Shown here: piece by piece, positions 10,920 through 52,946 of the stretch | Layout of the letters: each line of letters begins with the position of its first letter | How positions within the stretch are numbered: position 1 is the first letter of the stretch | From: Agarophyton chilense | Lineage: Eukaryota; Rhodophyta; Florideophyceae; Gracilariales; Gracilariaceae | Reading direction: 5' to 3' | Length of the DNA stretch: 64,000 bases | Assembly (NCBI GenBank): GCA_030374765.1 | Contig: JARGXX010000073.1 | Coordinates: 310,001-374,000, forward strand | Made by a program: the position numbers and the translations under genes | Notes under the pieces: model-generated | The model's database searches: none | What the model was told of the DNA's origin: nothing | The model's input: the letters and a program-made list of their open reading frames with translations, nothing else

Positions 10920-12260
10920 GATGCACCAGACTTTATGGCAGCTGCAGTCGAGCCCAGCACAGAACACGTAGTTGAACTTGAGATCTGCGGTCCTCAACGA
11001 AAGGATTATTCTTGCAGAGAAATGCGTCGTCTCAAGTCTTAGTCAAGGGCTTCGCGCACTAGCGTGAACGGTAAAGAATCCCAGATTGCTTCTCTGATTC
11101 GCGAGGTCTAACAATTCCACAATTCGCAAGAGTCACTTTCTAGTCAAGACAATGATGAGCAAATTTCTGCATCAGTACGGGCACTAAGTGAAAATTTAAC
11201 CAGTTTACTGGAAATGTACAAAAATACGTCCGAGGCGATACCTGGCTTAGCTGTGAACGTAGAGGAAGTGCTTACTCTACATAAACATCGTTTAGCGCGC
11301 CTGGAGGCGGCTGTTTGCAACAGAACCACTTAAATACCAATCGCGCTGGAAGAAGAAAGAGCTTCCTTGAAAGAATCTCGTTCGATGAAGTCGAAGTCAT
11401 GACGAAGAGAAAGTCCATAGGCGTTTTGAGTGATAAATTGTCAACTACAGAACATTAGAGCTCCAATACTTACGAAGTTGACCACTTAGTTTCGTCAGAT
11501 GGCGATGACAGTGATGATGTTCATCAAAGATCCCGATCTCGGAATAAGAAAACGTTTTCGTGGTCAGTAGGAAAGGAAGGCTCACATTACCGAGGATGAA
11601 AAGTGCTGACCTGGACAAGCCCAATCTATTGGAAGCTCCTGAACGACAGGTACTGCAGTTTGAGAGTGAAGAGCAAGAAGCACTCAGGAGGCGCAACTGC
11701 GAAGGTGAAAGACATCATTAAGCGAAGGAAGATCGGCCTTAATAATTTGACCTTTAATGGAAATACCCCCCTTTTTGTTATCAAGATTCTGACTCGGTTT
11801 TTTTCTGAAGCTGACACCTTAGAGGTGAGTGAACGACGGGAACAGATGTATTTCCTACACTTACTGAAAGGCTTTGCTTTGGAGCAATATCGTTCCGATC
11901 TGCAATCTCTGACCGCCGATGAAGGTGGCGGGATCTCCTGTACAGGGACGAAGCAGTACTTGCTGCGCAGTGACGCGACTTCAACAGCGATGCGTCGGGC
12001 GATCCTGGAGCTAAAGAACGTAATTCAACAACAGTATGATGAAGAGAAAGATGAGTACAGCTCAAGGCTTACAAAAGCTGTAATCCGCTGTGGAAATGTC
12101 CTCTGGACGGAGGAAAAGATCATCTTGTACATTGTTGGATTGGAACCGAGCATCAAATTGTCGATAGCTCGATACACAGAAAAGAATTGGAAAACCCCAT
12201 TTTTGGAGTTTATGTAGTTAGGTCAGGCTGATGGGGATGCAGTAAGAGCGCAAGGTCAAC
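10920..12260 (+). pseudogene. Gag remnant of G1
   Basis: Two parts are readable. Around 11144-11332 a frame with SVRALSENLTSLLEMY and HRLARLEAAV resembles the helical stretch of G2 Gag. From 11603 to 12217 a 204-codon frame carries the capsid-like region: FNGNTPLFVIKILTRFFSEAD, GFALEQY and RCGNVLWTEE align with FSGEDPILVLDFLARFVAEAD, GLAEDQY and RSGNVHSAGE of G2. The frame ends at a stop at 12215 before any zinc knuckle. Gag would form the particle and bind element RNA. The start is lost in a stop-rich region, and the left limit given is approximate. Confidence 0.75.
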
Positions 12261-13094
12261 AACGCCGCTGAATGGCTTTTTTACCCCTAGTTGTAAAGAG
12301 AAGAGCTCCGCGAAAGTCATTTGGCGCAGAAAACTGCCACATCTGAAATCTCCAGTGGAGTCCCGTGATTCGTCATTGGCCCCAGTACGAATTCGTTTGC
12401 ATAGAGAAACAGTCCATTAAATAGATTTCTCAGACTAATTCGTACCCAAAGTGGACCTACACCACTCGCAGTCACAAGAAGAAGAACACGTTATGGCAAT
12501 GGAGAGCCGTCGCTACATGTACCGTCCCCATATTGTTCCCCCACAGAGAAGATATAATAACAGAAAATTTTTATAAGTGTATACTCGTACCACTCACCGT
12601 TGGAAACGTATGTTTTCCAACCGTCTTCACGGTTTGATATGCTATTCATGATATGGAAAACACCATTTGAGTGCAGAACGCACATATCCTGCAAAGACTC
12701 TGAAACATTTCAAAACTAATTAAGAACCACTTTCGGGAGTTAAAAGAAGCAATGTACCCGCTGGGCTGTATTGGAGAGCCAAGGGTTGAATTTATAAGTT
12801 ACCAATGCCCCAAACAGACCAGCATGTTGTTCAGAGTGCTGAATTGACGCAACCTGGAACCCCGATCGGAATGGTCACCACGAAGGCGAATCAGCCCTTG
12901 CAGCCGGAAAACTAAGTGATGGAGCCCCTAGAGGGTCGGCCATAGTCAATCTAGTAGTGCGCACCAGAGAGAGCTCGTCTACCCGCTCCCAAGCTTGAAA
13001 GCCCAATATTCTACTGAGCCCTCCAAAATTTCCTGTGAGCGGTGGTTATCCGTCTGAATGAAAGTTATTACAGTTTGACTGTGAGCTATAATGT

Positions 13095-14800
13095 CTCTGG
13101 ATATGTTGTACTTGTCCCTCCAAACGGGAAAGCTAATTCGTGGTAATATCAAAATGCTACTATAAGGTCTATGCCAACATCGGCTTTGACAAAAATCTGT
13201 TGATTCGTCGCCGGACTACTCTAGATAGAGGTACTGGTCCAAACTTTATAAGGAACTCGGAACTTGCCCATGGTGACTTGGAACAATGCGATATGGTACC
13301 TTACCGGATATCCCGACTGCCAACGAAAATGCTTTGAAGACACGGGACAGTTCGACTACTAGTGTGACTAGGTCGATTCGTAGTCATAGTCGACTTCATC
13401 GTCTATAAGAAGCTAGCAATAACAGGGGTGCTCGAATATGACTATTTTGAAAAGTTTATTGATGCAATTCTCCCCCGAAGAAGACTAGTGGAACTAAATG
13501 ATGAACCCACGGTCTCAACTGTTCGCAAGGCACCACTTTGATGCCCTGATGCATTTCAACTACCACCACCTTTTGGAGTAGTGGAAGTACCAAGGACGTG
13601 TCCGACCGAAGATTCGAGTTACAAATACAGTAATGCTGAAGGCTCAGACCAAAACCTGGGTTCAATTTAGAACGGAGAGACACATAGACTCGTGGTAATT
13701 CAACCGAATACCCGGATATACGGATCTCGTGGATAGCTGGTCGCTAACGGCGTTGTTCAGGTTCCCCCTGGTAAACTCTTTTGAAGAATGTTGAGTAACT
13801 CTACAAATATCGATGATCAGATACCGAAAAATTAGGTTGTTGCAACAGCTTTAACTCATTCTAAAAACGTGGTTCCAACTCACCTTTTTTACAGGAAGAG
13901 CCCCGTATTTTCATTTCACGACGATCTCTACAGTTAAAGGAGGATATCATTTGCCTTAACGAACGCACAAGCTACTTTCCACCGTACTTTGGACAGCTTC
14001 CTCTCAATATTTAAGTCGAAGACTTGTTCAATCTATTTGCACGATAGGATTCTCTTTTCCTAAGATGTAGGAAGAAATTGAAGCCATGTTGAGGATATTC
14101 TCAAAGCACTACAGACCGCAGGAATCACCTTCGAGTTCAAGAAAAGCGAATGGTTCCCTGGCACCGTCAAGTACTTCAAACAAGTGATTAACCCTGGGAA
14201 GGTTTCCATTCGGGATTCGCAAAGATTGGAACTCCGCTAAGCTCGACATCCGTCTACACACACGTCAATGTGCTCTTTCTTGGGCTTGTTCATCGTTTAC
14301 TGACGATTCGTGCCACAATAATCACATAGAGTGGCACCACTTAGCACAATGTTGCGCAAGGGACAGCCAGTAAAGCTGAAACAGTTCGGACTGCCTAAAT
14401 GATAAGCGCTTGACACGCTGAAAAGACGCATTGTTACAACCCCATTTTCGGCCATACCCGTTCTCAACCTACCATATTCAGGGGATAGCCACTCCAGCGA
14501 GTATCGAGTAGGGTATGCCCTTTTCCAAACAAACCCTGATAGTAAATGAAAACCCATTGACTACTGGTCTAAATATCTGAACACAGCTGAGAAGAAGTAT
14601 TCAGTTTCAGAAAGGGATGCATTGCAATCGCCTGGGCTTTGACCAATTTGACACCGTATCTATAAGGAGAACGTTTTACCTTCAACACGGATACTTCGTC
14701 TCTAAGATGGTCACTGTCAATCGCAGACCCATCCTGTCGTCTCACATGATGGCATTTACTCTTTTCTGAATTCGATTTAAGTGAAATAAAAGAAGACCTT
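13095..14800 (+). pseudogene. Protease-RT-RNase H remnant of G1 pol
   Basis: Near 13155-13260 YYKVYANIGF and LDRGTGPNFI correspond to the G2 protease motif DTGAGPNFI, with the Asp kept and the next Thr changed to Arg. At about 14085-14330 a frame with DILKALQTAGITFEFKKSEWF and VKYFKQVINPGKVSI matches the RT thumb region of G2, and an SFLGL block follows. At 14550-14660 IDYWSKYLNTAEKKYSVSERD matches RNase H (IGYWSRSLNVHERNYSVSEKE). Many stops and shifts lie between the blocks, so this is a relic read only through its sister copy. Confidence 0.75.
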
Positions 14801-15800
14801 GGAAAATGTCCCAGCCGACGCGGTATCGCCACTGAAAGAATTGGGCGAAATCAATGAAGAAATCGAAGAAGGTCTACCTTTTTTTAACATGGAAAAACAT
14901 TCACTATTTTTCGAAGAAGAGGAACAAGAAATAATCCGTGATTATTCGGAGGCAGACCCTATTATTGAGTCGACAGATACAGACCCTTCAGATCAACTCG
15001 AGCAAATCATGTGCACTGAGCTCCTCAATGAACAGCAAACCAATACCTTTTGTGCGTCGATACGCTCTCCTATTAACAGAGGCGAGGATCTCCCTTCTTC
15101 ATTCTATTCACGAGGAATACTGTGAAGACATGTCGAAAAGAATGATCATGTCATGGTTCCACACGTTTTGAAGAGTCGAGTACTACATCTGATGAACTAC
15201 AGCAGACTGTCTAAACATACTCGAAAAACACAGTTCTTTATGACTCTAAGAAGAGATTTCTTGTCGGCCTACCTTAACAATGGGCTGCCAGGCTATAGTG
15301 AAGTTGTTAACGACATGTGCGAAGAATTGCGTAGAGCTTTGAAAGAGGTGAAAACGGATGACATTGTCCCCGGCGAAAGTGCGTTTACAATCTGTCATTA
15401 TTGGCATCCTAGGCGAATTAATTCGCTCAAGGCGAGGCTGTCGCTACCTATTTGTAATCCCAGACCATTTCTCGAAACTAGTACAGAACATGTCGCTGAA
15501 GTGAAGCACTGCAGCCGTAATCAAACAGCTGTTTCTCAAACACTGGATTTTCGTATGTATACTACCAAAAGTCCTGTTATCAGATAGTGAGATCAATTTC
15601 GTTGCAAAGCTCTTTCAGAATGTTTGCAGCATTACTGTAATTCAAATCGTTTTTTCCACGATCTACCATTCGCAACGCAACGGTAAATTGGACTGTTTCA
15701 ACCGCACGCTGATACAGCCATAGGACACTACCTCTCCGACCACCCAAAGGATTGAAACATACGCACATACACCCTATGCTACGTGTGCAATACATAAGTT
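14799..15800 (+). pseudogene. Integrase remnant of G1 pol
   Basis: The frame 14799-15125 ends with LLNEQQTNTFCASIRS, which aligns with the acidic linker before the G2 integrase (MVREQQGDPFCTKIRA). From 15153 the text VPHVLKSRVLHLMNYSRLSKH matches the histidine half of the HHCC zinc finger in G2 (VPHTLQSRVLHLSHYAKLGGH), and NDMCEELRRAL stands where the CxxC half should be. The catalytic core is only weakly visible at 15400-15780. Integrase would insert the cDNA, but stops and a degraded core show that this copy is inactive. Confidence 0.7.
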
Positions 15801-17058: not shown

Positions 17059-17564
17059 GTGAGCGAACGCTTAGCGGCGCAAAGACCGCTATCACGAATA
17101 CGCATAAGACAACTTCATGACGTTTTTAACATGTGGACAGTTGTCTCACGCCAACAACGGAATTATTGGAAAGTTTCCAGGAATATCATATGGATCGCAT
17201 ATTTGAATATGGCGAACGTGAAGACACCAAAGAATTGCTGTATCGAATCCGTTGGTACGGGTTTTCTCCGAACGAAGATACATGGGAACCTGTAGCTGGT
17301 GTGCCCTCATTCAAAACTCGTGCGATATCATCTTCTCATGCGATGAGAAATCGCCAAGAAGAACAACTCCTCGTTAGTTGGACTCATAGGCGCACCCCAT
17401 TTCTAAGTGTAGGCTACGAAGGTAGTAAACCTGGAAGCCTAGAAGGAAAGAAGAATAGAAGAGAACTAGGAAAGTTGAACACACAGAGTCAACGAGAAAT
17501 GAAGAAGAACCGAATATCTCAAGAAGCGAAAAGGAGAAAAGACTACAAGAGAAGGGAAACGTGA
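17059..17564 (+). pseudogene. Chromodomain end of G1 pol
   Basis: Near 17170-17310 the plus strand reads FQEYHMDRIFEYGER, then ELLYRIRWYGFSPNEDTWEP, the fold signature of a chromodomain (aromatic cage residues Y, W and the W of DTWEP). It aligns with the end of G2 pol (EFVVDHIVEH, YLVRWYGLGPEWDSDEP). Chromodomains on integrases direct insertion to modified chromatin and place the family among the chromoviruses. The tail after the domain is Lys/Arg/Glu rich, ending at 17562-17564. Confidence 0.8.
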
Positions 17565-17638: not shown

Positions 17639-19324
17639 TCATCCATGAGACGTACGGTCACGCACGTTTGCCAGATGTTGCGAGGGATCACCTTCGACGT
17701 GTTTGACAATAAGACCCGCGTCTAAGAGGAACTGCCTTCGCAGACCGATACCGGGATCTTCGACCGGCACTGTACTGTGTTGTTCGGAAAAGGAATGAAA
17801 GTTATCTTGAGCACCTCCCACCGCTGCGGACCAATCTACGGAAGCCGCCATACCTCCTAGTAAGGATTCATCATTGAAACCGAGTTCAGATACCACTTTT
17901 AAAGCATCCCCAAATGGATATTATCCACTCTCAAATGGAGTGCTGTCGTACACGTATCTAGTGAGCTGGTTAGGTGGCGTCTCACCCCGATTCTCTCGAA
18001 GAATGTGACCTCACTTGGAGGTCATCAACTGCCGCGTCCAGGGTACGTACCAAACGATGTCCCCAGCACTTGCTGTTCGCCCAAAAAAATGATTTTGGTG
18101 TCTTGCAGAAGTTCGGCGAGCGGATTGTTCAGCTAGGACTCCAGACCAATCGATCTTATCCCCTAAAATCAACAAGATGAAGAAAGACGGCATGGTTCGC
18201 ATTGGATCCCAGGGCGGGAGAAAGATCGAGTTTCATCGCATAACTTAGTGCTGTTGGAAACTTTTCCCAAACTCTAAAGGTATCATAAGCATCATACCGG
18301 AGAAAACTGCCATCTCGACGATATGTTCGGTATAAAACACACTCCAACACCACATTTATGGGTCGTTAGCCGAAGTGGTTCAAATGTAAATCATCGACGG
18401 TGGGAGCTCCACAGAGCAACCGCTAGGACTCTCTATCGCCGCCAAATGCTCCAGAATGCCGATGTAGTGCCCGAAGCGTGGATTCCGCTGGTTGCCATTG
18501 ATATACATCATTTGATACGGCAAAAAATAGCCCAATCGTGATCGATTACGATTTCTCCAACGAGGATTGTCCCAATAGGGGATAACGCACTTACTAAGGA
18601 AGCGGAAGTACTCACTGAGAAGTGGTTTTTGAAAGCAGAAAGTTGCGATACGCACGCCACGTATGCTGCGCCAACTGCATACATCTACATCGATGAGTGA
18701 ATCTATGCACAAGTAACCTTCACCGTTGGTATGGGCTTTGCAGGTAAATAGTTCCCAATCCTGTGGAAGAACTACCGTACTAATGTATTCACGAAGACAC
18801 TGGTTTATCAGCTTGACGAAGCGGGTACAGGCTTTGCATAGTGTTTGAGTTAAATATAGCGCATTCGTGTTGTCTGGCAAAGCGATATAGCTCGTTCGGT
18901 CGTCGCTATATATCGCGTGTTTTGGAATACCGTCGGGAAAGTACCCATCGTGAACATTCTCTGGAATCAACGCTTCATCGCAAATAGCAACTGAATCAAA
19001 CTAGGGGGCTTTAGAGAACAGTTCCAAGTTAAGGAGAGAGTGTCGTTCAAATAAATCTGCACGATTTGGATAGCACCCCTGAGGATGACGAGACGTCGCT
19101 CAGATCACACCATCGGAGAAAACAGAAGCTGCGTTCGGCATTGGAGCCATGGATGGCTGTGATAACGGCATGGACCAGAATCTCGAGTACAATGTGCAAA
19201 AGGGACAGTATGGGCCGTGTTGAGCAGTAGCGCGCGTCGTATAACCGGCAGCTTTGGACGGAGCCCCAGGTGGCACGTTCATGGAGGAGGCTTGGAATGA
19301 GTTAGACCTGGTGTTCGGATTCAT
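17639..19324 (-). pseudogene. Antisense ORF (aORF) of G1, damaged
   Basis: On the minus strand between pol and the 3' LTR, the text aligns with the antisense frame of G2. The N-terminal piece 19324-19100 has YSRFWSMPLSQ and MPNAASVFSDGV. The long 196-codon piece 18970-18380 has RGVRIATF, RSRLGYFLPYQ and GCSVELPP. A shifted piece near 18202-18120 has KIDWSGVLAEQSAR, and the C-terminal piece 17896-17639 has QFLLDAGL. G2 equivalents are FSGFRSSPLLQ, RGIRIAQQ, RSRFGYLVPYQ, GCYIDLPP, QLDWTTVPIEQSGR and QFLRQVGL. The first two pieces share a frame broken by stops; later pieces are shifted. The product is unknown and I recognise no family. Confidence 0.7.
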
Positions 19325-19495
19325 TGCAAGAGGTCAAGTAGAAGAGCGGTACGATAAAGCGTACTGCCGCGAAGCAGAAAAGTGCGATAGAAGGCGAAGG
19401 ATTCGTATTGACGATGAATACCCGAATAGACGCTGTAATTGCGTTTTTTAAGTATTGTTTGCGTCCCCATTGGTTTGCGCTGAATAACGAGGGTG

Positions 19496-20211
19496 TGAAG
19501 TACTCTATTTGGTCGGCCGAACCGATAGTATAAGTTATCGTGAAGTGGCGGTTGGAACTAAGAAGTGAAAAGTATGGTCATTGGAGTTGCATGAAACGAC
19601 CCCCAACATACGATGCCAAAATGCAGGATATATTCGTGGAACACGTGATGGCAAAATTCGTTTGTCTTACCACGACGCTCATACATTTGCAACCCTTTTT
19701 TGGGGAATTTTATAGTGACAACGGCATATTTATTGTCGATCTACGTGTAAGGTTTTACTACTCTTTACGGCCATAAGTACATCAAGGACCATACCCGTGC
19801 AGTGGTTTGGCTGAGTTGATGACCATTGGATATTGTGTACGTCATACTTGTTCACTCAACTTGGTACACAGTATATAAGGTACCAGAGGTGAGGGTCGAC
19901 TCCAAGTAAAGGAGACAACATGGGTATCATGGGTCTTCTATTCCTCGCTTAGGACTCCCTAACTGTAGATTCAGACGAGATTTAATGCTAATTCAGCCCA
20001 CAACTACATCTCCCGGCGCCTCGTTTGCCACATCCCATCCGCATTATACAGTGTACTGTTCACCCTCGCTGGATAGTAGTGGCCTTACAAAGCACTCCCA
20101 GCTCGCTGGTGCTGTAGCTTTACTACCCCATTTACCTTCGTCGCAAGCACTACATCGGCATTCCGAACTATGTCGCAGGTGTATGCTTTTACCGAAAACG
20201 CGAATACTACA
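19496..20211 (+). repeat. 3' LTR of G1
   Basis: This 716-bp copy begins TGAAGTACTC and ends near ACTACA, which gives the usual TG...CA limits and resembles the TGAAGTGCAA...TTGCACTACA ends of G2. It aligns with the 5' copy over its full length, apart from the insertion there. Divergence between the copies is high, consistent with an old insertion. Confidence 0.75.
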
Positions 20212-26289: not shown

Positions 26290-26318
26290 CCATCTCCACT
26301 CTACTTTGGTCTTCATTC

Positions 26319-35063: not shown

Positions 35064-35162
35064 TGAGAGATGACTAGATCTATGATCGTCCATCCAGGCT
35101 TTGGCTCCTGTCCTGCGACTATTTGTTGGTGGCGCTACGTGGACACGATTTGCGTGACATCG
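35064..35162 (-). repeat. 3' LTR of C3
   Basis: About 99 bp starting TGAGAGATGA on the plus strand and ending near TGACATCG. It aligns with 53508-53611 with small gaps after the first 13 bases. Confidence 0.7.
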
Positions 35163-35238
35163 GCGTGGTAAAGGCACGCGTCGAAAACGAGAACGAACCC
35201 AAACGGTGCGTGATATCACACCCCCCGACGCGTGCATA

Positions 35239-36790: not shown

Positions 36791-37105
36791 ATTGCCGTCC
36801 GAATCTCGTATATATTTGTACGTCATGGTAAGGGGTATGAGGCGCTTCGGTAGCTGATTTTTGGGGAGCCATTTGATGCCTGGCAAGGTAACGAGTTTAG
36901 CGAGCTCAGTGTCCTGCGCTTCTTACTTTTTGTTGGAGTCCGGATATGAGTGGGCTTGTTTGAGACTGGCTGGTGTTGGTGTCTTTATCGTGATGTTTTT
37001 GGGTGTAGGGTGCAGTGTATGGGATTTGAATGCTCTTGCTTGTGTGGCGGTTGGGTCATCTTCACGGGTGTAGGGCTGGAAGTTGGACGATGGTATCTGC
37101 ATAAA
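36791..37105 (-). pseudogene. C3 linker between integrase and RT
   Basis: The minus strand near 36870-36795 reads LPGIKWLPKNQLPKRLIPLT, then MTYKYI, the copia stretch just before the first RT block. The remainder toward 37105 is interrupted text without a motif. Confidence 0.55.
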
Positions 37106-39982: not shown

Positions 39983-40776
39983 TGAAGTGCAACCCTCGTG
40001 AGGGCCGTTTTCCAGGACTTGGTTGTTTTTCCGCCTCGGGCGATACTTGTGAGATCTATGAGTAATACCGCTTCTAGCGGGCTGGCGTAGCCAGGTGTAT
40101 ACGCGTTGTACGAGAAGTTTACCGGCGGCCGTGCGCCGTGGCCCCGATTCGGGTGTGACTTACCCACGTGTACCACGGGTGGCCCAGGACAGGTTGGCAC
40201 AGCATAGCTGGATATTTCTCTATTTATTTAGCTTTATTACACTAGGTTAGGGAGCTCTGTACAGTATTCTACACTATATAGTGCCAGGGCGGTCTCGCCC
40301 TGACACTCAGTAAACCTCCCCAACCAGGGTTCTTGGCTCTAAGTCTTTTTCCGCTTTCGCGAGTCTTCCACACTCTACGGAGGTGAAGCCGCGTTACTAA
40401 CGGTAGACTTATCCGCCCTGCGTCAACAGGAGACTCACCGCTGTTAGCGTGTATATCTTTCATACCCCTGCCGTGTTCTCGCCCCAGTATTGGGTTTGCA
40501 CCATATTTCTTTTGGCTCTCGTGGCCCATGCCCCCGATCGCCCCCACTGGGTGGTCCCCCCTTTATCACTTGCCCACTCCCGTGGAATACAGCTCATACG
40601 TGGTCTGCTCCCTTCTAGCATCCCGCACTCTCCCCGCTTGGCGTGCCGGTTAACCTCGGCCTTACACCCCGACTTAGTCGTGTTTACTCCGGAGAGGCTC
40701 CGTCGCCGTCCTACCCTCCTTGGAGGAAGACTCGAACATCTTCGTGTGTTTCCGCCGCCCTTGGCATTGCACTACA
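39983..40776 (+). repeat. 5' LTR of G2 (794 bp)
   Basis: Matches 52153-52946 at the same length. A TATA-like CTATATAG lies at about 40274, directly followed by a hairpin AGGGCGGTCTCGCCCT. The likely RNA start is just downstream, so the hairpin would stand at the 5' end of the transcript. Inverted termini TG(A/T)AGTGCAA support the limits. Confidence 0.9.
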
Positions 40777-40797: not shown

Positions 40798-40936
40798 GGC
40801 TAGGGGAACCTGGTTTGGTTGTTTTTCACATTGCTGTGCTGTCTTCTCTTGTCGAGATCTGCTTTCCAATTTCTTGGTTTGGACCCACTTGGTGGAAGCT
40901 TTTGTTGTCCTATTCTTAGTGGTCAACGCTACAACC

Positions 40937-42835
40937 ATGTCACGACTACCGTCGGAAGCGGAACCCGCGATCACGCGGAGCCGTTCCGTCACTGACGTGG
41001 TGCCTGCGGACCCTGGAAGGGTTCCCCCGCCGTTACCTCAAGCCGCTCCGAAAGGCAAGAGTAAGGGCTCAAACTCCTCCAAGAACAACAAGCTACCGCC
41101 TAAGGCGTCGAAGAATGGACCCAATTCTGGTGCTGGACCGGCCCCTGCCGGGGATGATCCGGCTCCTGCCGACGAAAAGGCCCAGAAAAATGAGTTCCAC
41201 ATCGACACCACCTCAAGTTTGAGGCAGCAGATCCGGGTATTGCGGGAAGCGCACAATGCCTTCGTGGAAGAGTTCGAAGCCCTGCGTTCCAGGTGTGATG
41301 GATCTTCTATGAAGGAAGTGGTTGACGACCTCCGCTTGTTGCGGGCGGACGTCAACACCCTGTTGGAATGTTTTGGTGGTCCCGCCGCTTACGTGGAAGG
41401 TGTCGAGGCCCGATTCAATCGTGTTAGCGCCCGTCTCCAGACGTTAGAGCAAACCATCTTGATGGAAGACGTCCCGGAGAAGCCGGTTGCTGTGTCGCAC
41501 CAAGCAAAACACGAGAGGAAAAGGGACGGTACCCGCCGTCGGCTTGGAAAGCGTGACAGCGATGACTCGGACTCGTCGAACTCCTCACGGTCGTCGCGTG
41601 GCTCTCACCATTCAAATGGGTCGGACTCGTCAGATTCGTCTTCTGACGATGGCCATCGCAGGCGTTCATCCCGTTCTCAACGGTCGTCTGCCACCCAAGG
41701 TGTGATCCGCGCCCGCGAGAAGGGAAGGAAACACTCCGGGTTGAAGGAGCTGAAATGCACCAACCCCCTGTACAAGAAGTTGGTTTCTTACCGATACTAT
41801 CGGCTAGGGAAATCCTCTTTGGATCGCACGCCCCGTGCCACGGGTAGAGTGAAGGATTGCATAAAGCGTATGCAACTGTCCCTCAGGAACCAGAGCTTTT
41901 CTGGAGAAGACCCTATTTTGGTGTTGGATTTCCTTGCGAGGTTCGTCGCCGAAGCGGATTTTCTCGGTATGACCGAAGGACAGGCGTTTATTGCACTCCC
42001 GTACTTTATGAAAGGCCTCGCCGAAGATCAATACAACTCTGTAAGAGGTTCGTCTAGAGCCTCCGAAGGAGGGGTAACCTGCTGGCCAGAAGCAGTACAA
42101 TACCTCTTGAGGTCCTACGCCACTAATCACGCGATTCAGTCGGCCATTCTCGCTCTTCGCGATACGCGCCAGAAGTCTGGAGAAACGGAAACCGAATTCT
42201 CGGTGCGCCTGAACAAGGCTTTCCACCGTAGTGGGAATGTACACTCCGCCGGAGAGCGCTGCACCATGTTCATCGATGGACGGGACCCCGCTATCCGAAC
42301 ACTCGTGGCCCGTTACCGGGAAGACAGAAGGAAGACCACGTATCTGGAGTTGGTCCAACACGCGCAAGCGGAAGGTGACGCTTTAAGAGCTCGTGCCCCC
42401 GGACACAGGTCGCTAACCGCCAAGGCGTTGGTGATGGAAACGAAGTCGCCATCCCTATCGCTGGTTGCGATTGAGCGCCCCGAACAGGAGTACGACAACG
42501 TACACTTCGCCCGAAGCGATATCCATTCCGTCCCGACAACCGAACTACCGTCTACGACGGACGACTCATATGACACGGCCCAGGATGGACCCCTGCTGTA
42601 CGCAGACTCTCCCCGTGTTCACCGACCTCGCATCCCGTATTCAAACGGTGCGCTCCGACAGATTCGCCCTGGATGGAAGGATACCCGCCAAGCGGTGAAG
42701 TTCACGGATGCTCGCTCCGGTTTGCAGCCCTCACGAACGGAACTCATATGCCACATATGCTACGAACACGGTCACATTTCACCGGACTGTATCCTCACCA
42801 TGAGGGAAGTAGCCCGAGTAATCGGTAATTATTAG
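40937..42835 (+). CDS. Gag of G2
   Basis: A 632-residue open frame from the ATG in ACAACCATGTCACG. The N-terminus is Pro/Ser/Lys rich. A helical stretch follows (about 95-180, LRQQIRVLREAHNAFVEEFE), then a Ser/Arg/Asp tract (about 205-290), a capsid-like region (about 310-500, FSGEDPILVLDFLARFVAEAD and GLAEDQYNSV) and a zinc knuckle CHICYEHGHISPDC (CX2CX4HX4C) close to the C-terminus. Gag forms the particle and packages element RNA. It ends at TAG 42833-42835, after which the same frame stays open to 43066 before pol takes over in the -1 frame. It is the only undamaged sense gene of G2. Confidence 0.9.
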   Translation: MSRLPSEAEPAITRSRSVTDVVPADPGRVPPPLPQAAPKGKSKGSNSSKNNKLPPKASKNGPNSGAGPAPAGDDPAPADEKAQKNEFHIDTTSSLRQQIRVLREAHNAFVEEFEALRSRCDGSSMKEVVDDLRLLRADVNTLLECFGGPAAYVEGVEARFNRVSARLQTLEQTILMEDVPEKPVAVSHQAKHERKRDGTRRRLGKRDSDDSDSSNSSRSSRGSHHSNGSDSSDSSSDDGHRRRSSRSQRSSATQGVIRAREKGRKHSGLKELKCTNPLYKKLVSYRYYRLGKSSLDRTPRATGRVKDCIKRMQLSLRNQSFSGEDPILVLDFLARFVAEADFLGMTEGQAFIALPYFMKGLAEDQYNSVRGSSRASEGGVTCWPEAVQYLLRSYATNHAIQSAILALRDTRQKSGETETEFSVRLNKAFHRSGNVHSAGERCTMFIDGRDPAIRTLVARYREDRRKTTYLELVQHAQAEGDALRARAPGHRSLTAKALVMETKSPSLSLVAIERPEQEYDNVHFARSDIHSVPTTELPSTTDDSYDTAQDGPLLYADSPRVHRPRIPYSNGALRQIRPGWKDTRQAVKFTDARSGLQPSRTELICHICYEHGHISPDCILTMREVARVIGNY

Positions 42836-43029: not shown

Positions 43030-46000
43030 GGCCCCGCCCCAGGCGGATGGGACTCAGGAAAACTGATTTCTGGAGTCTCCCCTTCGGGAGTGGCATCCCC
43101 AACAGTGAGATTGACGACGCCCAAGGCGTCTCCGCCTCGCTCCCCGGTCACAATCCTCACGAGGAAACAGGCCGTCTCAGACGTGGACTCTGAACACTTT
43201 GGTGTTCTACGTCGACCGTGGAAACGTTTTCTTAACCGCCGGTTCCCGGATAGAGTCTTAGTAATGGCCAAGCACAATTACAAGGTGTATGCCGACCCTG
43301 GCCTTTCTACCCAGTTTATGGTTCGAGTCCTTACTGTTTTGGACACAGGTGCTGGTCCGAATTTCATCGTGGAGTCGCTGCTGCCCCCGCCCTTGCGGTC
43401 TCAGATCCGCCTTGGCGTGGCGCCCGACGTCGCAAACGCGAATAACAACCCGTTGTTAACGGTTGGAACCGTCGCTCTCGTCGTTCGCTTGGGCTCCTTC
43501 GTGGTGAAACTCGACTTTATTGTATGCCGGAAATTGGCTGCCCCCATCATCTTGGGATGTGACTTCTGTGACAGATTCGTTGACGCCATAAGGCCCCGCT
43601 TAAAGCGTGTTGAGACGGAAGACGGCTCGTCGGTCCCGATTGTCCGTCGTCCGCTGCGGCGTGCCTCCAAGAAGCTCGTACCGCTCCCTGCCGCGCAGGA
43701 ACCTCCACCCGCTTCTCGGGAGTCTACCAAGCTCCGCGTGGCTGCATCTGTCCAAATCCCGCCAGAGTCCCAAGTATGGGTGCGTGTCACTTCCCGTCAA
43801 CACGGTTTACGAGTCATCCAGCCTCTCTCATCTCTGTACGATGGATATCAACTCGCCGTGGCGAATGGAGTCGCGCAGATTGTCCCAGACAAGCCGTTCA
43901 CCGTGCTCGTTGCCAATCTGGGCTCCACCCCCCAGTCACTGGTGAAAAACCAAGTTATTGGATCGGTAATGCCTCACCCCACCGCGATGGTCCCCACTAG
44001 GCTGACCGCTGCCGAAGTCCTCGGTCTCGTTCACTCTGAGGAGGGGGAGGAAGCTGCCGTCCAATCACCGAATGATTCGGAATCGCAACCTGCCGAAACA
44101 GAAAAGAAGCCCGTTCCGACGAGTTACGACCGGGTAGACCCCGTGAAAGAACTCGAGGAACTCGACCTCGGTCATGTACCGGAGTCACACCGTGAAAGTC
44201 TGCGTGAAATGTTACGGGAGTTTACCACAATGTGGGATGGCTCTCTTGGTGAGATAAATACAACGGAACACCGGATAGATGTATTGCCGAACACCCGACC
44301 GGTGGCTCAACACCCTTACAGGGCAGGCTCCAAGGCTCGAAAAGAGGAACAGTTCCAAGTGGACCAAATGCTCCGAGCTGGAGTGATCGAACCGGCTCAG
44401 TCGCCGTGGGCATCCCCAGTGGTACTGGCTCCGAAACCCGATGGGTCCTGGCGCTTTTGCACCGACTACCGTTGCTTGAATGATGTTACCGTCAAGGACG
44501 TGTATCCGATCCCACGAATGGATGAGTACATCGACTCTCTCGGCACTGCTACCGTGTTCACGGCTTTGGACGCCAATTGGGGATATTGGCAGGTTCCCGT
44601 TAGGGAGGAGGACCAAGATAAGACTGCGTTTGTCTGTCACTCGGGACTCTACCGTTTCAAACGGATGCCTTTTGGTCTAACCAATGCTCCCGCTACCTTT
44701 CAGCGTGCTATCGACATTTTGTTGGCCCGCTTTAAGTGGAGTACTTGCCTCGTCTATTTGGACGATATCATTGTATTCTCAGACAATCTGGATGACCATC
44801 TCCCCCATGTCAGGGACATAATGACCACGCTACTTGATGCTGGAATAACCCTCAAACTGAGGAAATGTGAGTTCTTTACCGATACTGTGAAGTATCTCGG
44901 GCACATTATCCGTCCTGGACGTGTAATGATCGAGGAAGCTCGAGTGAGGTCCCTTCCCAAGGCGAAAGAACCCGCTACCCAGACGGAACTGCGCTCCTTT
45001 CTAGGATTGGTCAATGTATACCGACAGTTTATCCCTAACTTCGCTGACATCGCGGCCCCCTTGAACGCGCTTCTGCGGAAAGGTCAACCACCTAAACTGG
45101 ACCCCTTTACGTCCGCCCAGACGGATGCTTTTAACTCCCTCAGGGAGGCTGTCACATCAGCACCGATTCTATCGTTACCGAAACCCGGACTACCGTTTTC
45201 CGTGGACACAGACTCTAGCGACTACCAGGTAGGCTGTGCGCTCTTTCAAACTACTCCCGAAGGAGAACGCAAACCCATTGGGTACTGGTCACGCTCGCTC
45301 AATGTCCACGAGCGGAACTACTCCGTGTCGGAGAAGGAGTGCCTCGCAGTTGTGTGGGCCCTCTCTACACTACGCCCCTACCTCATGGGTGTGCACTTTA
45401 CCGTTTACACGGATCAATCGTCCCTACGATGGCTCATGACCATCTCAGAGCCGTCAGGCCGCTTAATGCGTTGGAGACTCCGCCTCGCGGAATATGACTT
45501 TGAAGTGATCTACAAGAAAGGCACTCAGAACGCGCAAGCGGACGCGCTCTCGCGTTTACCCACGAATGGGGAAGCTCTAGCCGTCGATGACGAGGATATA
45601 CCTTGCTTCGTCGTAGACGATGGAACACCGGGGGACCCGGACTGGTTACACGATAAATGGAACGAAAGCCCGGAATCGGATGATGATATTGACGCATTGC
45701 TCGTCTCGGACGATTCAGAGAAACCCCCGCCGGGTAATTTTGTGCCGATACCCCCGGAGGAGATGGTCAGAGAACAGCAGGGTGACCCCTTCTGTACGAA
45801 GATTCGCGCCTGGCTTAATTGCGGTGCACAACTCCCTTTCGAGGTGAACGATCTTGGATACCTCGTCAGGACGGTTCAGTCATCTCCACAAGTCGTGGTG
45901 CCGCATACTCTACAGTCTAGAGTTTTGCATCTATCGCACTATGCGAAACTTGGTGGACACGCCGATGGACGGAAGCTCTACCTCACTTTGCGAAGGAATT

Positions 46001-48810
46001 TCTACTAGCCCGCCATGGCGGTGGATTGCTACGCAACGGTGCGGTTTTGTACCGAATGTGCTAAGAATCGGGTGAAACTTCGCAAGTACTCAACGAAGTT
46101 GAAACTATTCCCGGCACGGGCTCCTCTCGAGTTTGTCGCCATTGTCATCCTCGGTAAGCTCCTCACCACACGACGTAGGCATAAGTTTTTACTCGTTATC
46201 ACGGATCGTTCCTCAAAACTGGTTCGGACCGTACCTTTACGGAAGATATCCGCTTTCACGGTTGCACAAGCATTTGTAACCCATTGGGTGTTCGTCTACG
46301 GCCCGCCGGTTAATCTTCTATCCGATAACGGAAAACAGTTCGCATTGCGATTCTTCGAGGACGTGTGCAGGATTCTTGACCTCAAGAACCTGTTCACCAC
46401 GACCTATCACCCCCAGTGTAATGGGCAAGTGGAGCGGTTTAACCGAACGCTATTAGCGTCTCTCCGTTCTTACGTGGCCGACCACCCAAAGACATGGGAT
46501 TTATATACCGACGCCTTGACGTTCGCGTAGAATACGCAGGTACACCGTACTACGGGCTTGACTCCATTCGAACTGGTCTTGTCCCGCCCTCCGCCCGCTG
46601 TCGCGTTAGAACCCCAGCCCACGCTGGATGCGTTCCCTTCCGTGAAGGATTATCACCACAGGTGGAAAGAGTGGCTTACGAAGCTGATCCCGGTCGCCCG
46701 AAGCTCGATGGCTCGTGCCCAAGCCGCTTACAAGCGTGATTTCGACTCTCGCGTACGCGGTAAGGCCCCGCCAATCAAAGCCGGTGACTTTGTCTTCGTC
46801 CGTGAGGAGTACTGGAACCCTGAAAAGGAGAAGAAGCACAAGCTTTCTTCCGTCGCCGACGGTCCTTACAAGGTCATTTCGGTGAAAGACGACACCATCG
46901 TGGTGGAAACTGTCGACGCTCATGAGCGGATCTCCCACGACCGCGTTGTACTCGCCCCGCCACCGACGTTGGAAGTAACCGAAATGGGTCAACAATCCCT
47001 CTCTGAGGATGATGGTGCTCGGCACACAACAGTGGCTCAGCCCACTGCCGTGGTTTCCAGACCTTCTGCGTTACCACACCCTACCCGGGGACTCTCTGAC
47101 TTGCCGATCTTATCGGACCAAGGCCAGAATGGCCTCTCTTCTCTCACGCCATGGCGCGGTGTCTACCCCCGCCCGTTGGGCGTTTCAACCACTCCCCATG
47201 CCGCTCCGTCTCAGGAGGGGGAGGAGGCTCATAACTCTCGTCGAGAGACGGAAACCGCTTCGTCGCGTCATGACAACCGTGGTGCACGGACTCCTGGACA
47301 CACCAGCAAGAACAACGGTGATCCAGACGTCCCGTCTACTGACGTGCCATCTCCGCATATGCGCGCTACAGCCGTTGCTGAACCCTCTCTGGGAAGCGCC
47401 ACCGCATCTGCGTCTGATCGCACTCCCCACGGGGACTCTACTCGACAGGACGCACCACGTAGTGGAAACCCTCTCGCCGAAACGAAACCGAAATCGTCGC
47501 AGGATGCTGTTCGCCCTCGCGATGCTGGACCGGCTATGCCGTCGAGCGTTGACCCGCAGCCCGTGGGTCACGGTTCGTCGACACCAACTACGCTGGGAAA
47601 CTTAGAGCACGCCCTCGCAGTCCCCTCTAGGCCGAATCGATCGGAAGTGGTCCCTCGTACTGTACGGCAGGACACACCGGCTAAGCCGGGCAAGCACACC
47701 GTAGCAGACGGGAAATTCACACCCAGCACGCTTGATGCTGGTTCAGAACCCGCGCGCAGTGGCGGACGCACTCCGAGTGTCTCGGTTGACCCCGACCGCG
47801 TTGTCGAAGGCGCACCGGTCACCCCGGAGAATGTGCCCGTCAAGGACGGAAGCACCTCGTCGCCGAGTGAAGTTGAACCCTCGAAAGGGATAGTTGAGGA
47901 CGAACTCGCTCCCCGCAGGGGTTCCTCGCCGCGCACTTCGCCGCCCGTTGGTGAGGAAGGCACGGTTGACCCGGAGTTGCACGCGCGTCGCGGTACTTTG
48001 TCGCCCAAGCGAGCAGACATACCGGCAGCGCCGTTGCACACGCCCTCACGTGAGGAGGCGGAACGCAGCACGGCGCGGAGTACTCCCAGCCATCAGCCGG
48101 ACGTGTAACGTGACCAGACGACACCCGGCTCGGGAGATACGCCAATCAACGCCCAAGGCGGCTCACCCGGCAATGCACGACGCCCCGTGATGAAACCGCC
48201 TCCCGCGTCAAGTCCAGCACCGTCGCCACGGATTTCACCCCGACGACTCGCGGAACGCGATCGCGAAACCCAGCCTTGGGATGAGACCGCGTTCCATCGA
48301 AGGGTGGCCTCTGCACGAGAACTCTCGGAAAGCATTCCGACCCAAAAACTGGGAGAATTGCCCGACGGGAAGGCCTCCGGCCGAAGCCGTCGAACTGACG
48401 CTCTTCGTCATGACGCCTTGGCGGAAGCAACCCGCCAAGCGGCCAAGGCAACCCGGAACCCGGTTCGTTCCCCTACCTAGGGCATGGAAAGGCAACGCCA
48501 ACCCATGGACCCCTCGGAGGAAGGGCACAGTAGCCCACACGCACCTGCGGACGTACACCGGTATGGTCCGGTGACGCGTACACCGCAAGGGCGGGAAGTC
48601 TACGAGAAGGAGTTCGTGGTCGACCACATAGTGGAGCACTCATACCATCCGGATGGTTATATTCAATACCTCGTCCGTTGGTACGGTTTAGGGCCCGAAT
48701 GGGATTCGGATGAGCCGATGGAACATCTCCCACGTTCGAAGGTGGTGTCATATCACCGTAGAACGCGGACGGGAATCCCGGCATCGGTTGTTAAAGCCCA
48801 GGTGGGATAA
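43030..48810 (+). pseudogene. Pol polyprotein of G2 (protease, RT, RNase H, integrase, chromodomain)
   Basis: One reading frame spans the whole gene, with stops at 46006 (TAG), 46528 (TAG), 48106 (TAA) and 48478 (TAG) but no shift. Domains: protease LDTGAGPNF (about 43340); RT PKPDGSWRFCTDYRCLN, MPFGLTNAPATFQRA and VYLDDIIVF (about 44755); RNase H with VDTDSSDYQVG and SVSEKECLAVVWAL; integrase zinc finger, split by the 46006 stop between HLSHYAKLGGH and CTEC; core with LLSDNGKQF and QVERFNRTL; a long Pro/Ser/Arg-rich spacer; and chromodomain YLVRWYGLGPEWDSDEP. In the integrase, VAIVILGK stands where V-x-I-D-I-x-G-P is normal, so the first catalytic Asp is also lost. Both stops in the integrase replace well-conserved positions. 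Confidence 0.92.
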
Positions 48811-48989: not shown

Positions 48990-50063
48990 TCACGGGTTCG
49001 GCTCACCGCCCCCGGGTTGGTTACCTCCCTGGAGGCGGGTGATCAAGGCCTCGCGCATCGCGGCAACATCGCCACTCGCTGCGTTGGTCCCCAGCCCCAC
49101 CTGTCGCAGGAACTGGGAGATCACGGCCGCTTGACCCGCCGGAGCGGAGCTCGCATCGCCTGGGGCGGACGCCCCACCACTTGGGAGATTCACCGGTGGA
49201 ACCGGAGGTGGTCCAGCTACCGCGTACTCCGACCCAGCCCCCGCGGGGTTATCCAAATCCACGTAAGGCGTGGCTGGCGTCCCCGCGTTATAGGGACCTT
49301 CCGCTTCGGATCCCTTTACCTCCGCCTCGGCGTACGCTTCCCCGTCGTCGGGTTCGTTGTCCACCATTGGATCGTCGCCGTCGTAGACGTGGTAATATTC
49401 ATCCGCGTCCACGAAACCGATCGGATACCCCTCAGGGATATGGCGTGGTGCAAACCGGAGTTCGTTCGCTTCCTCGGCGGAGATTTCGTGCCCTTCCCAA
49501 GGGTCAAAGAATACGAAATCACCTCTCAAGGGAGTACGCCTTCCTGGTGAGAGGTCCTGACCCCGGCTACCCACGGTGCGCCCGCTTTGTTCAATCGGAA
49601 CGGTGGTCCAGTCCAACTGGTAGATGTAATCGAGAAGACCCGCCACTTCTTCGGCGTTGGTTACTCCACCAAGTGGGATGCTCAGGTCCAGGCTGCGAAT
49701 CGCGGACCTCAACCGGAACGGGAGGAACCACAGTATGTACTGGTCATACACCTCCCAGAGGATGAACACCGCCGCGCAGACTGCCCATTTGGTAATCACC
49801 ACGGACCACAGTCCGGACTCGGGATCCTCGATGAGGTACGAACCGTAATACGTGATGACTGGTGGCAGGTCGATGTAACAGCCCCGGCAGGCCTCGAGGT
49901 TCGACCACCACGGTGGAATGAGGACATAGCGACCCCGTCGGTCGGCCACGCGAAGGCGTTCGATCTCCACGTTCTGATACGGGACCAAATACCCGAATCG
50001 GGATCGTGCTCGACGCTCGAAGCGGATCAGGGCGAGGAAGTTGGCCCGCGCAAGTCGACGCAT
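48990..50063 (-). CDS. Antisense ORF (aORF) of G2, C-terminal part
   Basis: A 357-codon minus-strand frame downstream of pol, starting at the ATG of the duplicated target CGCAT and ending near the pol stop (tail to tail, 180 bp apart). It begins with a basic stretch (RRARSRFGYLVPYQ). A hydrophobic section follows (VVITKWAVCAAVFILW, possibly membrane-associated), then QLDWTTVPIEQSGR, an acidic region (DADEYYHVYDGDDP) and a Pro/Gly/Ala-rich tail with QFLRQVGLG. Several blocks align with the antisense frame of G1, so it is a protein and not a chance frame. I do not recognise the family. The true N-terminus lies beyond the insertion at 50064-51247. Confidence 0.7.
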   Translation of the reverse strand: MRRLARANFLALIRFERRARSRFGYLVPYQNVEIERLRVADRRGRYVLIPPWWSNLEACRGCYIDLPPVITYYGSYLIEDPESGLWSVVITKWAVCAAVFILWEVYDQYILWFLPFRLRSAIRSLDLSIPLGGVTNAEEVAGLLDYIYQLDWTTVPIEQSGRTVGSRGQDLSPGRRTPLRGDFVFFDPWEGHEISAEEANELRFAPRHIPEGYPIGFVDADEYYHVYDGDDPMVDNEPDDGEAYAEAEVKGSEAEGPYNAGTPATPYVDLDNPAGAGSEYAVAGPPPVPPVNLPSGGASAPGDASSAPAGQAAVISQFLRQVGLGTNAASGDVAAMREALITRLQGGNQPGGGEPNP

Positions 50064-51247
50064 TGTAACGCAACGCGCCGGGCCCTTATTGAGGACAAGT
50101 AGCCACCGTCCTCCGACCTCCTTACACTAAGCAGTGGCGACGCCGTAATAGCTGGCATACTGCCAGGATGGAATACCGTGCATGGCGCTGGGTGTCATAC
50201 GTGTGGCAATGGCCGGCAGCTAGTTCGTGTGGTTGGCACCATACAGTGCTCTGCACTGTTTCCTTGTAATTTTTAATTGTATTTATTAGTTGTAATCTAT
50301 CGTAATGGCTAACTGCTAAGCGGCCGGCGGTACTTGAGCGCCGGGTCGCCGGGGGCTAGACCGAAGTAAAGTCCAGAAGGCGGGGGGGGGGGGGCCTCCG
50401 AACTACTAGTTCGTGTCTTGAGACTATAGGGATATCAGACCTTCATTCCCAGTCGACGCCGACAAGACAGGCGGCAGTCTGATCAACTGCTGCAGAGGTA
50501 CCTCTCGCGTTTTAGCCTATCGAGTATTCCCCGTCCAGTCCTTGCCCTCACGGCCATCGGTCGCCGCGTGGCGCATTGCACTTTCGCTCGGTCTATTGGA
50601 CCGCTGGCAGTTCTACTGCCCGAGCAGATTGTAGACCCGTACCCGTTGGATACCGAGGTGGGGATCGGGAGCCTCGGATAAGTGAGTATCACTTCCAGGT
50701 GCAGCTGGTAAAGCCAGGCAGGCGCATTCGTCTGGGCGCTGGTTCAATCCCAGGGCTTGCCCTGCTTTGCTATCGTCACCCGTTGGGTGTGAGTGATTAC
50801 CACTTTGTGGCGCCAGTCGGCATAGCCAAGCAGACGCTCTCGTCTGAGCGCTGGTACAATCTCAGGGCTTGCCCTGCTTTGCTATCGCCACCCGTTGGGT
50901 GAAGTGGTTGGTGCGTCGTTGCCGACGTTAGGGTCGTGGCGCTCGTCCGGGCTCTGGTACAATCCCGGGGCTCGCCCCGGCTACTCGCCATACGCGGCGT
51001 ATATCCAGGCCGATCACTTCGGTTCGTGTCGGATCGACACCACTCCGAGCACGTCTTCCGGACGCCAAGGGCTCCTGTGGAACGATAGGAGTCTGTGTCT
51101 AGTAGACACTCCTCGACTGTGAGACGACGCCTCTCTTGAGTCGTTGCGGACTCTAGGGCCAGATAGCCGACCCCGGCTTTCCAGGCTCTGCCTGTGCGTA
51201 GCTCTCGCCGCCCGCGGCTGGTCTCCCGAGTAGCGCATTGGGTTACA
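50064..51247. mobile_element. LTR-like insertion splitting the G2 aORF (1184 bp)
   Basis: Starts TGTAACGCAACGCGC and ends GCGCATTGGGTTACA, so the two ends are imperfect inverted copies (13 of 15 bases). Perfect 5-bp duplications CGCAT stand at 50059-50063 and 51248-51252. TG...CA ends and a 5-bp duplication fit a solo LTR, as do the AT-rich box near 50260-50310 and the lack of a convincing gene. A short-TIR DNA element is the alternative. The insert is absent from G1. It contains a G-run (50383-50394) and tandem repeats (50700-51000). Confidence 0.75.
50700..51000. repeat. Tandem repeats of about 112 bp with conserved hairpins
   Basis: Units start near 50731 and 50843, with a more diverged third near 50944. 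Each carries a hairpin: CCAGGGCTTGCCCTG in the first, TCAGGGCTTGCCCTG in the second and CCGGGGCTCGCCCCGG in the third, where both arms changed together. The first two also share CACCCGTTGGGTG. They lie inside the LTR-like insertion. Confidence 0.6.
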
Positions 51248-52117
51248 CGCATGTAGCGGAATTCTGCCCGGATAATCGGTCGCGTCCAGCACATGGCCTC
51301 TTGCTGCGCTATCCGGATGCCCCTCAACGAGAGTGTTTCCAAACCCGCCAGGCGGTCGACGTAACCAATCTCACCTTGAGTGCGGTAAAGCCGAATGTCG
51401 GTGCCGAGACCATCGGGGATGGGATATTCGAAAGGAGCCCGGCGAAGCCGTTGATGGCCAAGAAGGACGAAGGCCGCATGAGCGGAAGCCGAGGTTTCCC
51501 TATCCCGGCGCGCCACAGCGTGGACCGGAACCGCTACGCGGCGTCGCCAATCCAACGAAGTTGTCGCTACGGCCGGAATATCGCCCGGCAGCATCCCGTT
51601 TCCATCGGTGTATATCGCTATGAGCGCTTCGTTTAACACCGCAATCGGGTGGAGCCACGGCGCAAGCAGGAGAACGGACGCATGATGCCCAGGATGGCGC
51701 CCGACAAGCATGTCGTATGGCGGCCACCCTCTCTGGGGGGAACATTCCGTACGGAGCAGCATCCGCGTTCGCGATAGGAATCTGCGGCGCAGCCGATGAC
51801 TCGCTTTGCAGAAGCGGAGAGGACCGGAAGCCGGAGAAGTACCCCGCAGGGAGACGGTTGGGTTGATTGTTTTGGTTGCTCATCGGTGAGCGAAGAGGCC
51901 GGATGACTGGAAGAGGAGACCGGCGAAGCGAAAGACGATGCTGAGGAATCGGAGGACTGGCACGCAAGGATGCGGATTCGGTTGAGATGGAACGTTGAGA
52001 ACGGTTGTTGCCAGGAGACTGGAGTTTTGCCGCACTGCGTTTGTTGGCATCGGATGAAGTGGATCCCAGCGAGCTGGTTGCACTCTTATGCATTCGTCTC
52101 GGCGCATCACCCACCAT
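51248..52117 (-). pseudogene. Antisense ORF (aORF) of G2, N-terminal part
   Basis: On the minus strand a Ser/Pro-rich frame from the ATG at 52117 carries FSGFRSSPLLQ and IPIANADAAPYGMF, matching the N-terminal piece of the G1 copy. Near 51740, at a run of six C, the match moves to another frame that continues with PQRGWPPYDML, AVLNEALI, GYVDRLAGL, RGIRIAQQ and EFRYM. G1 counterparts are PQGCYPNRADL, AICDEALI, GYLCIDSL, RGVRIATF and EYFRFL. The frame meets the insertion at 51247. In G1 both parts are in one frame, so the shift is probably a mutation of G2. With both parts the protein would have about 640 residues. Confidence 0.6.
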
Positions 52118-52152: not shown

Positions 52153-52946
52153 TGAAGTGCAACGCTCGTGAGGGCCGTTTTCCAGGACTTGGTTGTTTTT
52201 ACGCCTCGGGCGATACTTGTGAGATCTATGAGTAATACCGCTTCTAGCGGGCTGGCGTAGCCAGGTGTATACGCGTTGTACGCGAAGTGCACCGGCGGCC
52301 GTGCGCCGTGGCCCCGATTTGGGTGTGACCTACCCACGTGTACCACGGGTGGCCCAGGACAGGTTGGCACAGCATAGCTGGATATTTCTCTATTTATTTA
52401 GCTTTATTACACTAGGTTAGGGAGCTCTTTACAGTATTCTACACTATATAGTGCCAGGGCGGTCTCGCCCTGACACTCAGTGAACCTCCCCAACCAGGGT
52501 TCTTGGCTCTAAGTCTTTTTCCGCTTTCGCGAGTCTTCCACACTCTACGGAGGTGAAGCCGCGTTACTAACGGTAGACTTATCCACCCGGCGTCAACAGG
52601 AGACTCACCGCTGTTAGCGTGTATATCTTTCATACCCCTGCCGTGTTCTCGCCCCAGTATTGGGTTTGCTACATATTTCTTTTGGCTCTCGTGGCCCATG
52701 CCCCCGATCGCCCCCACTGGGTGGTCCCCCCTTTATCACTTGCCCACTCCCGTGGAATACAGCTCATACGTGGTCTGCTCCCTTCTAGCATCCCGCACTC
52801 TCCCCGCTTGGCGTGCCGGTGAACCTCGGCCTTACACCCCGACTTAGTCGTGTTCACTCCAGAGAGGCTCCGTCGCCGTCCTAACCTCCTTGGAGGAAGA
52901 CTCGAACATCTTCGTGTGTTTCCGCCGCCCTTGGCGTTGCACTACA
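52153..52946 (+). repeat. 3' LTR of G2 (794 bp)
   Basis: Same length as the 5' copy with about 18 substitutions by eye and no gaps, starting TGAAGTGCAA and ending TTGCACTACA. It is followed by GTTAT, the probable target duplication, and by C3 gag sequence. Confidence 0.9.

Follow-up and report, generated by a model that had tools for sequence, protein, structure and literature searches.

Does a long reading frame on the minus strand of a retrotransposon, placed between pol and the 3' long terminal repeat (LTR), encode a protein, and what might such a protein do? The question is raised by 64,000 nucleotides of the red alga Agarophyton chilense (contig JARGXX010000073.1, positions 310,001 to 374,000 of the forward strand; hereafter the window), which hold two gypsy-type elements, G1 and G2. 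An earlier note, made from this sequence without database searches, had described in both a conserved antisense protein of about 640 residues. In this study, the frame was followed through the genome (79.8 Mb scanned in 135 contigs; contigs are labelled in the style C1-C25, C39, and L-numbers denote individual fetched copies). The antisense open reading frame (ORF) is almost certainly a protein-coding gene under selection and, judged by codon patterns, purifying selection on its protein is shown for the time during which the families diverged.

Antisense gene in G2, G1 and further families

The G2 gene begins shortly inside the 3' LTR border and ends a little beyond the chromodomain, and a minus-strand frame between pol and the 3' LTR is present in G1 as well, as had been claimed:

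48990..52117, minus strand: G2 antisense gene, disrupted here (645 aa in sister copies), ATG at 52117, stop at 48990
51728..52117, minus strand: N-terminal piece, aa 1-130, in a different frame, by match to the sister-copy protein
51248..51738, minus strand: middle piece, about aa 127-290, by match to the sister-copy protein
50064..51247, no strand assigned: LTR-like insert within the gene, about 1.18 kb, with TG...CA ends and CGCAT on both sides, read by eye
48990..50063, minus strand: C-terminal piece, aa 289-645, by match to the sister-copy protein
17648..19444, minus strand: G1 antisense gene remnant in a single frame, with 9 in-frame stops in the codons aligned with the family G3

Both proposed ends of the G2 gene were borne out. 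The proposed length holds for the sister copies; in the window itself the frame is broken by the insert and also shifts near 51.73 kb. The insert is absent from all seven other G2 copies compared. For the insert itself there are 90 candidate matches, and the 40 that were scored include 39 further places with 96-97% identity. Six of its places on contig C5 follow each other in series at a spacing of 9,734 bp, as if a whole LTR element were tandemly arrayed. An uninterrupted antisense ORF of exactly 645 codons was found in 13 of 30 fetched G2 copies, and three more carry ORFs of 637, 644 and 659 aa (16 of 30 at 637-659). No in-frame stop occurs over the matched stretch in 25 of 68 scored copies (hand count).

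The sequence blocks reported as shared by G1 and G2 were recovered: 13 strings were searched and all lie on the minus strand (17711-19189 in G1, 49092-51838 in G2), with PQRGWPPYDML, GCYIDLPP and QLDWTTVPIEQSGR present in the minus-strand translations. The 645-aa G2 protein of copy L002 matches the minus strand of G1 at 19189-17996 (E=1e-30, 29% identity). When the open piece of G1 was used as query, 1201 candidates were obtained and 150 of them scored; the non-self matches, with 58-65% identity, revealed G3, which by its sequence is a third, abundant family with the antisense gene. Its protein (608 aa in copy L062) aligns in a single frame with G1 19444-17648 (605 aa, 55% identity), and the G2 and G3 proteins share 37% identity over 476 positions (E=2e-85). 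Chance similarity was rejected on these values. A fragment in L059 (75% DNA identity to G3) was set aside as too decayed for use.

A codon-degenerate GY[LF]VPYQ pattern occurs at 448 places in the genome and a GD[FI/L]V...DPW-type pattern at 267, each with a control of 0 (reversed in the case of the former). By codon group, 100 listed GY[LF]VPYQ places comprise 41 G3-like, 20 G2-like and 26 GYFVPYQ (G4) places and a last group of 13. The spacing of the two motifs was judged against the list of the second pattern on contigs C1-C25. Of the 41 G3-like places, 25 have the second motif at 468 nt, with single further places at 467 and 1161; in the G2-like group, 16 of 20 have it at 471 nt. Exactly the G2 spacing of 471 nt is also found in 5 of the 26 GYFVPYQ places, and a fourth family carrying the antisense gene, G4, is likely from these patterns. 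In the last group ('G5'), none of the 13 listed places has the second motif at the expected spacing; a fifth family is only hinted at by the motif. The string GGNTAYTTYGTNCCNTAYCAR (GYFVPYQ, G4) occurs at 156 genome places, part of them within known G2 or G3 copies. The earlier claim of two carrier elements thus stands for G1 and G2 but was too narrow, as G3 and probably a fourth family carry the gene too. No relatives of the antisense protein were found in viral contigs.

Selection on the antisense protein

Codon alignment of G2 and G3 was built on the antisense protein, and a six-frame search was done separately without codon guidance. Over 527 codons, differences between the two families at codon positions 1, 2 and 3 amount to 0.50, 0.43 and 0.69, and 83 of 117 fourfold sites differ, which is near saturation. 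The BLOSUM scores summed over the aligned blocks reach 881 in the antisense frame, compared with -217 to 247 in the other five frames, which carry 11-42 stops. In the six-frame search, the antisense frame scores 275 bits between G2 and G3 (at most 100 in the other five) and 122 bits between G1 and G2 (at most 30 in the others). In a 196-codon open piece compared between G1 and G3, it scores 637 against 440-483. Better conservation of a plus-strand frame, which the earlier note had named as evidence against its claim, was found in no pair: in each of G2-G3, G1-G2 and G1-G3 the antisense frame outscores the other five, in the last case by a small margin.

The past selection suspected earlier is also supported by the ratio of non-synonymous to synonymous substitution rates (dN/dS). 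Between G1 and G3, dN is 0.30 and dS 0.67, giving a ratio of 0.45 (bootstrap 0.36-0.55, 584 codons), and the ratio is 0.36 in the 196-codon piece. The true constraint was probably stronger, because the long neutral decay of G1 drives the ratio towards 1. The dS values of 3.7 for G2-G3 and 2.3 for G2-G1 are too close to saturation for a trustworthy dN/dS. The antisense protein is conserved somewhat less than other proteins of the elements, in the same range: between G1 and G2 its identity is 32%, compared with 38% for gag, 38% for reverse transcriptase-RNase H and 41% for integrase, and between G2 and G3 it is 37%, compared with 42% over 85 codons of the chromodomain region.

Host elements and placement of the gene

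The elements that carry the gene in the window are composed as follows:

39983..40776, plus strand: G2 5' LTR, 794 bp, 97.7% identity to 52153-52946 (18 mismatches, gap-free)
40874..42835, plus strand: G2 gag-like sense ORF (Pfam Retrotrans_gag at E=0.0019 and 18.8 bits, under the cut-off of 24.1; 38% identity with G1 11522-12328 over 274 aa)
43090..46008, plus strand: G2 pol, reverse transcriptase and RNase H (Pfam RVT_1 2e-36, RT_RNaseH 3e-36)
46015..48108, plus strand: G2 integrase and long tether in two ORFs, 46015-46530 and 46558-48108 (integrase ORF against G1 15274-15714: 41%, E=1e-32; SH3_Tf2-1 0.019, below cut-off)
48484..48810, plus strand: G2 chromodomain region (Pfam Chromo at E=3e-4 and 20.9 bits in the sister copy L003, under the cut-off of 25.1)
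52153..52946, plus strand: G2 3' LTR, preceded by a polypurine tract, its border 36 nt from the antisense ATG
9229..10526, plus strand: G1 5' LTR remnants, two blocks (78.5% and 74.8% identity to 19499-19872 and 19868-20191)
11522..15714, plus strand: G1 gag and pol remnants (lowest tblastn E with G2 protein queries 4e-43 for gag and 9e-74 for pol)
17178..17318, plus strand: G1 chromodomain remnant (tblastn E=1.6e-4)
19499..20191, plus strand: G1 3' LTR remnant, pairing with the 5' LTR remnants (about 75-78% alike)

G2 is flanked by GTTGT and GTTAT, identical at 4 of 5 bases. Judged by its sequence, G1 has the same layout but is older and decayed; about 600 bp (9603-10203) separate the two blocks of its 5' LTR, which adjoin in the 3' LTR. 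On the sense strand, a chromodomain is found in G1, G2 and G3, and gag and pol are recorded for G1 and G2. By their domains, namely a gypsy-type pol with RVT_1 and RNase H and a C-terminal chromodomain (the Chromo match of 20.9 bits lying under its cut-off), the three families G1, G2 and G3 of this red alga were assigned to the gypsy-type chromoviruses. A red-algal host is also indicated by the genome itself: 14 of its 15 phycobilisome-family matches fall on contig C39, 10 of these having E below 1e-34, and PDB 2bv8_B, from Gracilaria chilensis, is the nearest match of the phycocyanin beta encoded on that contig.

The G2 copies behind the ORF and stop counts had been found via the antisense gene, and the placement was therefore checked from the sense side too. 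An antisense match was listed at most 9 kb downstream for 38 of 40 scored G2 pol matches (of 1233 candidates); of the tether matches, 40 of 103 candidates were scored and 37 have one within 4.5 kb, the window's own copy being counted in both sets. For the other five, an antisense partner may have escaped the antisense lists, as these are not complete. Wherever the strand was listed (30 pol and 30 tether matches), the antisense gene lies opposite (60/60). Among the 30 loci L039-L068 (29 of G3, and G1), 29 show a tblastn chromodomain match next to the antisense gene, and in all 29 the two lie on opposite strands.

Relation to known antisense genes

Antisense accessory ORFs (aORFs) between pol and the 3' LTR have been described in Grande, RIRE2, Retand, PvRetro13 and the fungal Boty (PMC7264820, PMC11963269, PMC8365987). 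The red-algal gene belongs to this positional class (aORF-3R): it lies between pol and the 3' LTR on the strand opposite to gag-pol and is conserved in the range of other retrotransposon proteins. Presence in most copies of a family was found for G2 only, as the G3 loci had been found through the antisense gene. With Grande, RIRE2 and Retand it shares place, orientation, occurrence in most copies, conservation like that of other element proteins and the lack of an assigned role (PMC7264820, PMC11963269). The comparison with Grande and RIRE2 made in the earlier note is apt for position and strand, but no shared domain was found. Retand differs in that it is a non-chromovirus lineage of flowering plants, with TRP28 (PF04195) in 97% of recent clusters (PMC11963269), whereas the red-algal elements bear a chromodomain and their antisense protein has no Pfam family. 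TRP28 was not found at E<=10 in the proteins of L062, L009 and L056, in a search whose HMMER filters remove most matches above 0.1. Past the stop of the G3 antisense gene (L062 1-760), several copies of a CTTCTCGCTTCTCGAGTT-like unit were seen by eye, reminiscent of the tandem repeats that Retand elements have in this part (PMC11963269).

With brtn of Boty (Botrytis cinerea), an antisense gene is likewise known from a non-plant LTR element (PMC7264820, PMC8365987); its host is a fungus, and the two were compared by description only. Like other retroviral antisense genes, HBZ of HTLV-1 lies on the strand opposite gag-pol and is expressed from the 3' LTR; its protein is nuclear and regulatory (PMC10186651). 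However, HBZ is a bZIP protein, and no bZIP domain (Pfam) or other family was matched in the red-algal protein; the analogy is one of layout only. The Tekay aORF of sunflower and grasses is another extra conserved protein of a chromovirus clade and largely disordered, but it lies 5' of gag-pol in sense orientation (PMC11728184).

Within the literature and libraries searched, the protein family, the chromovirus carrier and the red-algal host look new for this class. No antisense ORF in red-algal elements was reported in the titles and abstract openings returned by searches of the PMC open subset, although a report elsewhere is possible and Repbase was outside the search. In the excerpts at hand, PMC5970526, on a red alga, names Gypsy and Copia and no such ORF, and PMC3605345 does not mention 'antisense'.

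Possible role and alternative explanations

The first 120 residues of the G2 protein are basic and Ser/Pro-rich (those of G3 are less basic), and the end is acidic and Pro/Gly-rich with a short conserved C-terminal stretch; the acidic stretch 481-540 has a net charge of -16 in G2 and -12 in G3. The hydrophobic middle described in the earlier note is moderate only, with a segment at the same place in both proteins (G2 aa 372-390, KD 1.79; G3 aa 376-394, KD 1.39). The conserved core covers about residues 95-500 (about 400 residues).

As no more than 25-36 nt separate the antisense ATG from the LTR border (36 nt in G2 and about 25 nt in G3, where the LTR start was set by eye from the polypurine tract), we infer an antisense promoter in the 3' LTR, at which the antisense mRNA would start. 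By this layout and by analogy with GENE23 of Grande and with HBZ, the protein would most likely act as a trans-acting accessory factor. Potentially, such a factor would tune transcription, silencing or integration of the element and work like GENE23 or HBZ while being unrelated to both. A probable nuclear location is suggested by analogy, since the Grande antisense protein is nuclear (PMC7264820, PMC11963269), and by the basic N-terminal composition. As a whole, mechanism included, the proposal of a selected antisense accessory gene with an LTR promoter and a trans-acting regulatory product appears to us evenly poised between right and wrong.

Several points speak against this proposal, among them that its nuclear part draws on analogy and composition. 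No match of weight to the antisense protein was found in Pfam and none in PDB by sequence or profile; three PDB profile matches (E 0.8-1.1) all fall within the low-complexity tail. An AF2 single-sequence model of the window's C-terminal 357 aa was unusable (mean pLDDT 37.6). In the G2 LTR, the antisense strand contains only one TATA-like string of the form TATA[AT]A, at a distance of 333 nt from the ATG and without statistics. At L053, the sole exception among L039-L068, tblastn gave no chromodomain match. In the six-frame search between G1 and G3, all frames score 467-661 bits and the antisense frame is best by a modest margin. The zero stops of the antisense frame in the G2-G3 blocks are trivial, as these copies were picked for open frames; the conservation pattern is independent of the picking.

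Substitutions in the antisense gene also look nearly neutral within families. Two pairs gave dN/dS of 0.88 (0.55-1.44) and 0.83 (0.46-1.73), and the single-copy variants (synonymous/non-synonymous/stop 195/415/17 in G2 and 253/636/37 in G3) fit the neutral expectation. Among variants in at least three copies, 14 of 36 (G2) and 26 of 80 (G3) are synonymous, with an expected fraction of 0.29. A dN/dS near 1 across copies, which had been named as counter-evidence, is thus roughly what is seen within families, whereas the between-family ratio is well under 1. However, in these G2 copies the chromodomain/tether ORF of the sense strand appears just as neutral (142/290/15), and therefore the within-family test cannot separate coding from non-coding sequence. 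Our reading is that copies decay freely once inserted and that selection works between active lineages.

Other explanations of the gene have to be considered. The protein might counter host silencing, by RNA interference or chromatin marks, instead of acting on transcription of its own element. Modulation of RNA silencing has been suggested for the sunflower Tekay accessory protein (PMC11728184), sense and antisense transcripts of such a layout could pair as double-stranded RNA, and the families with the antisense gene are abundant (448 GY[LF]VPYQ places). We consider this unlikely, as no domain or fold pointing to it was seen in Pfam or PDB. A structural or envelope-like protein of the element's particle is a little less probable again: the moderately hydrophobic segment at a matching place in G2 and G3 would suit it, but the basic, Ser/Pro-rich N-terminus has no hydrophobic signal-like start, a gene on the opposite strand is untranslatable from the sense genomic RNA, and similarity to G2 gag was not found (hhalign probability 0.3%).

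The coding evidence itself bears on two further explanations. Antisense noncoding transcripts are known for LTR elements (PMC7264820), and the antisense RNA might act by itself, through double-stranded RNA or interference, the ORF being incidental. This is very improbable in view of the constraint at the codon level, which holds in one frame across some 500-600 codons, and a function of the RNA only would not spare the protein as fourfold sites near saturation. Least credible of all is an artefact, in which the frame would be the shadow of a sense-strand gene or of composition. One sense frame does reach 100 bits in the G2-G3 search, and in many G3 copies (L040-L068) the sense strand across from the antisense gene holds an open frame of about 248 aa. 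Nevertheless, the other frames carry 11-42 stops between G2 and G3 and score at most 247 against 881, and between G1 and G2 they stay at or below 30 bits against 122. The 248-aa ORF is probably itself a shadow ORF, because sense frames carry stops in the G2-G3 blocks. A sense-strand gene in the region was rejected, since the antisense frame outscores all sense frames.

For the selected antisense gene with a trans-acting product, it is tempting to speculate further. Tentatively, and with more doubt than confidence, we propose a protein family without Pfam or PDB relative that would be old in red-algal chromoviruses, present in three and probably at least four diverged families and made antisense from the 3' LTR. 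It would be an HBZ-like regulator or anti-silencing factor with an origin separate from those in plants, fungi and retroviruses. Antisense accessory genes of LTR elements are known, yet unexplained, and an apparently unrelated case in a red-algal chromovirus under protein-level selection would suggest that antisense placement at the 3' LTR arose repeatedly for a reason. With 448 motif-bearing places, one genome of 80 Mb offers a large natural data set for testing the role of such genes.

Other elements in the window

Further retrotransposon sequences accompany G1 and G2. An LTR-like pair (157 bp, 96%) at 22424-26471 encloses a reverse transcriptase ORF (23435-25306). Copia-type remnants with RVT_2 and rve matches lie on the minus strand at 34479-38116, and amid them a short G2-like pol fragment is found on the plus strand (36561-36779).

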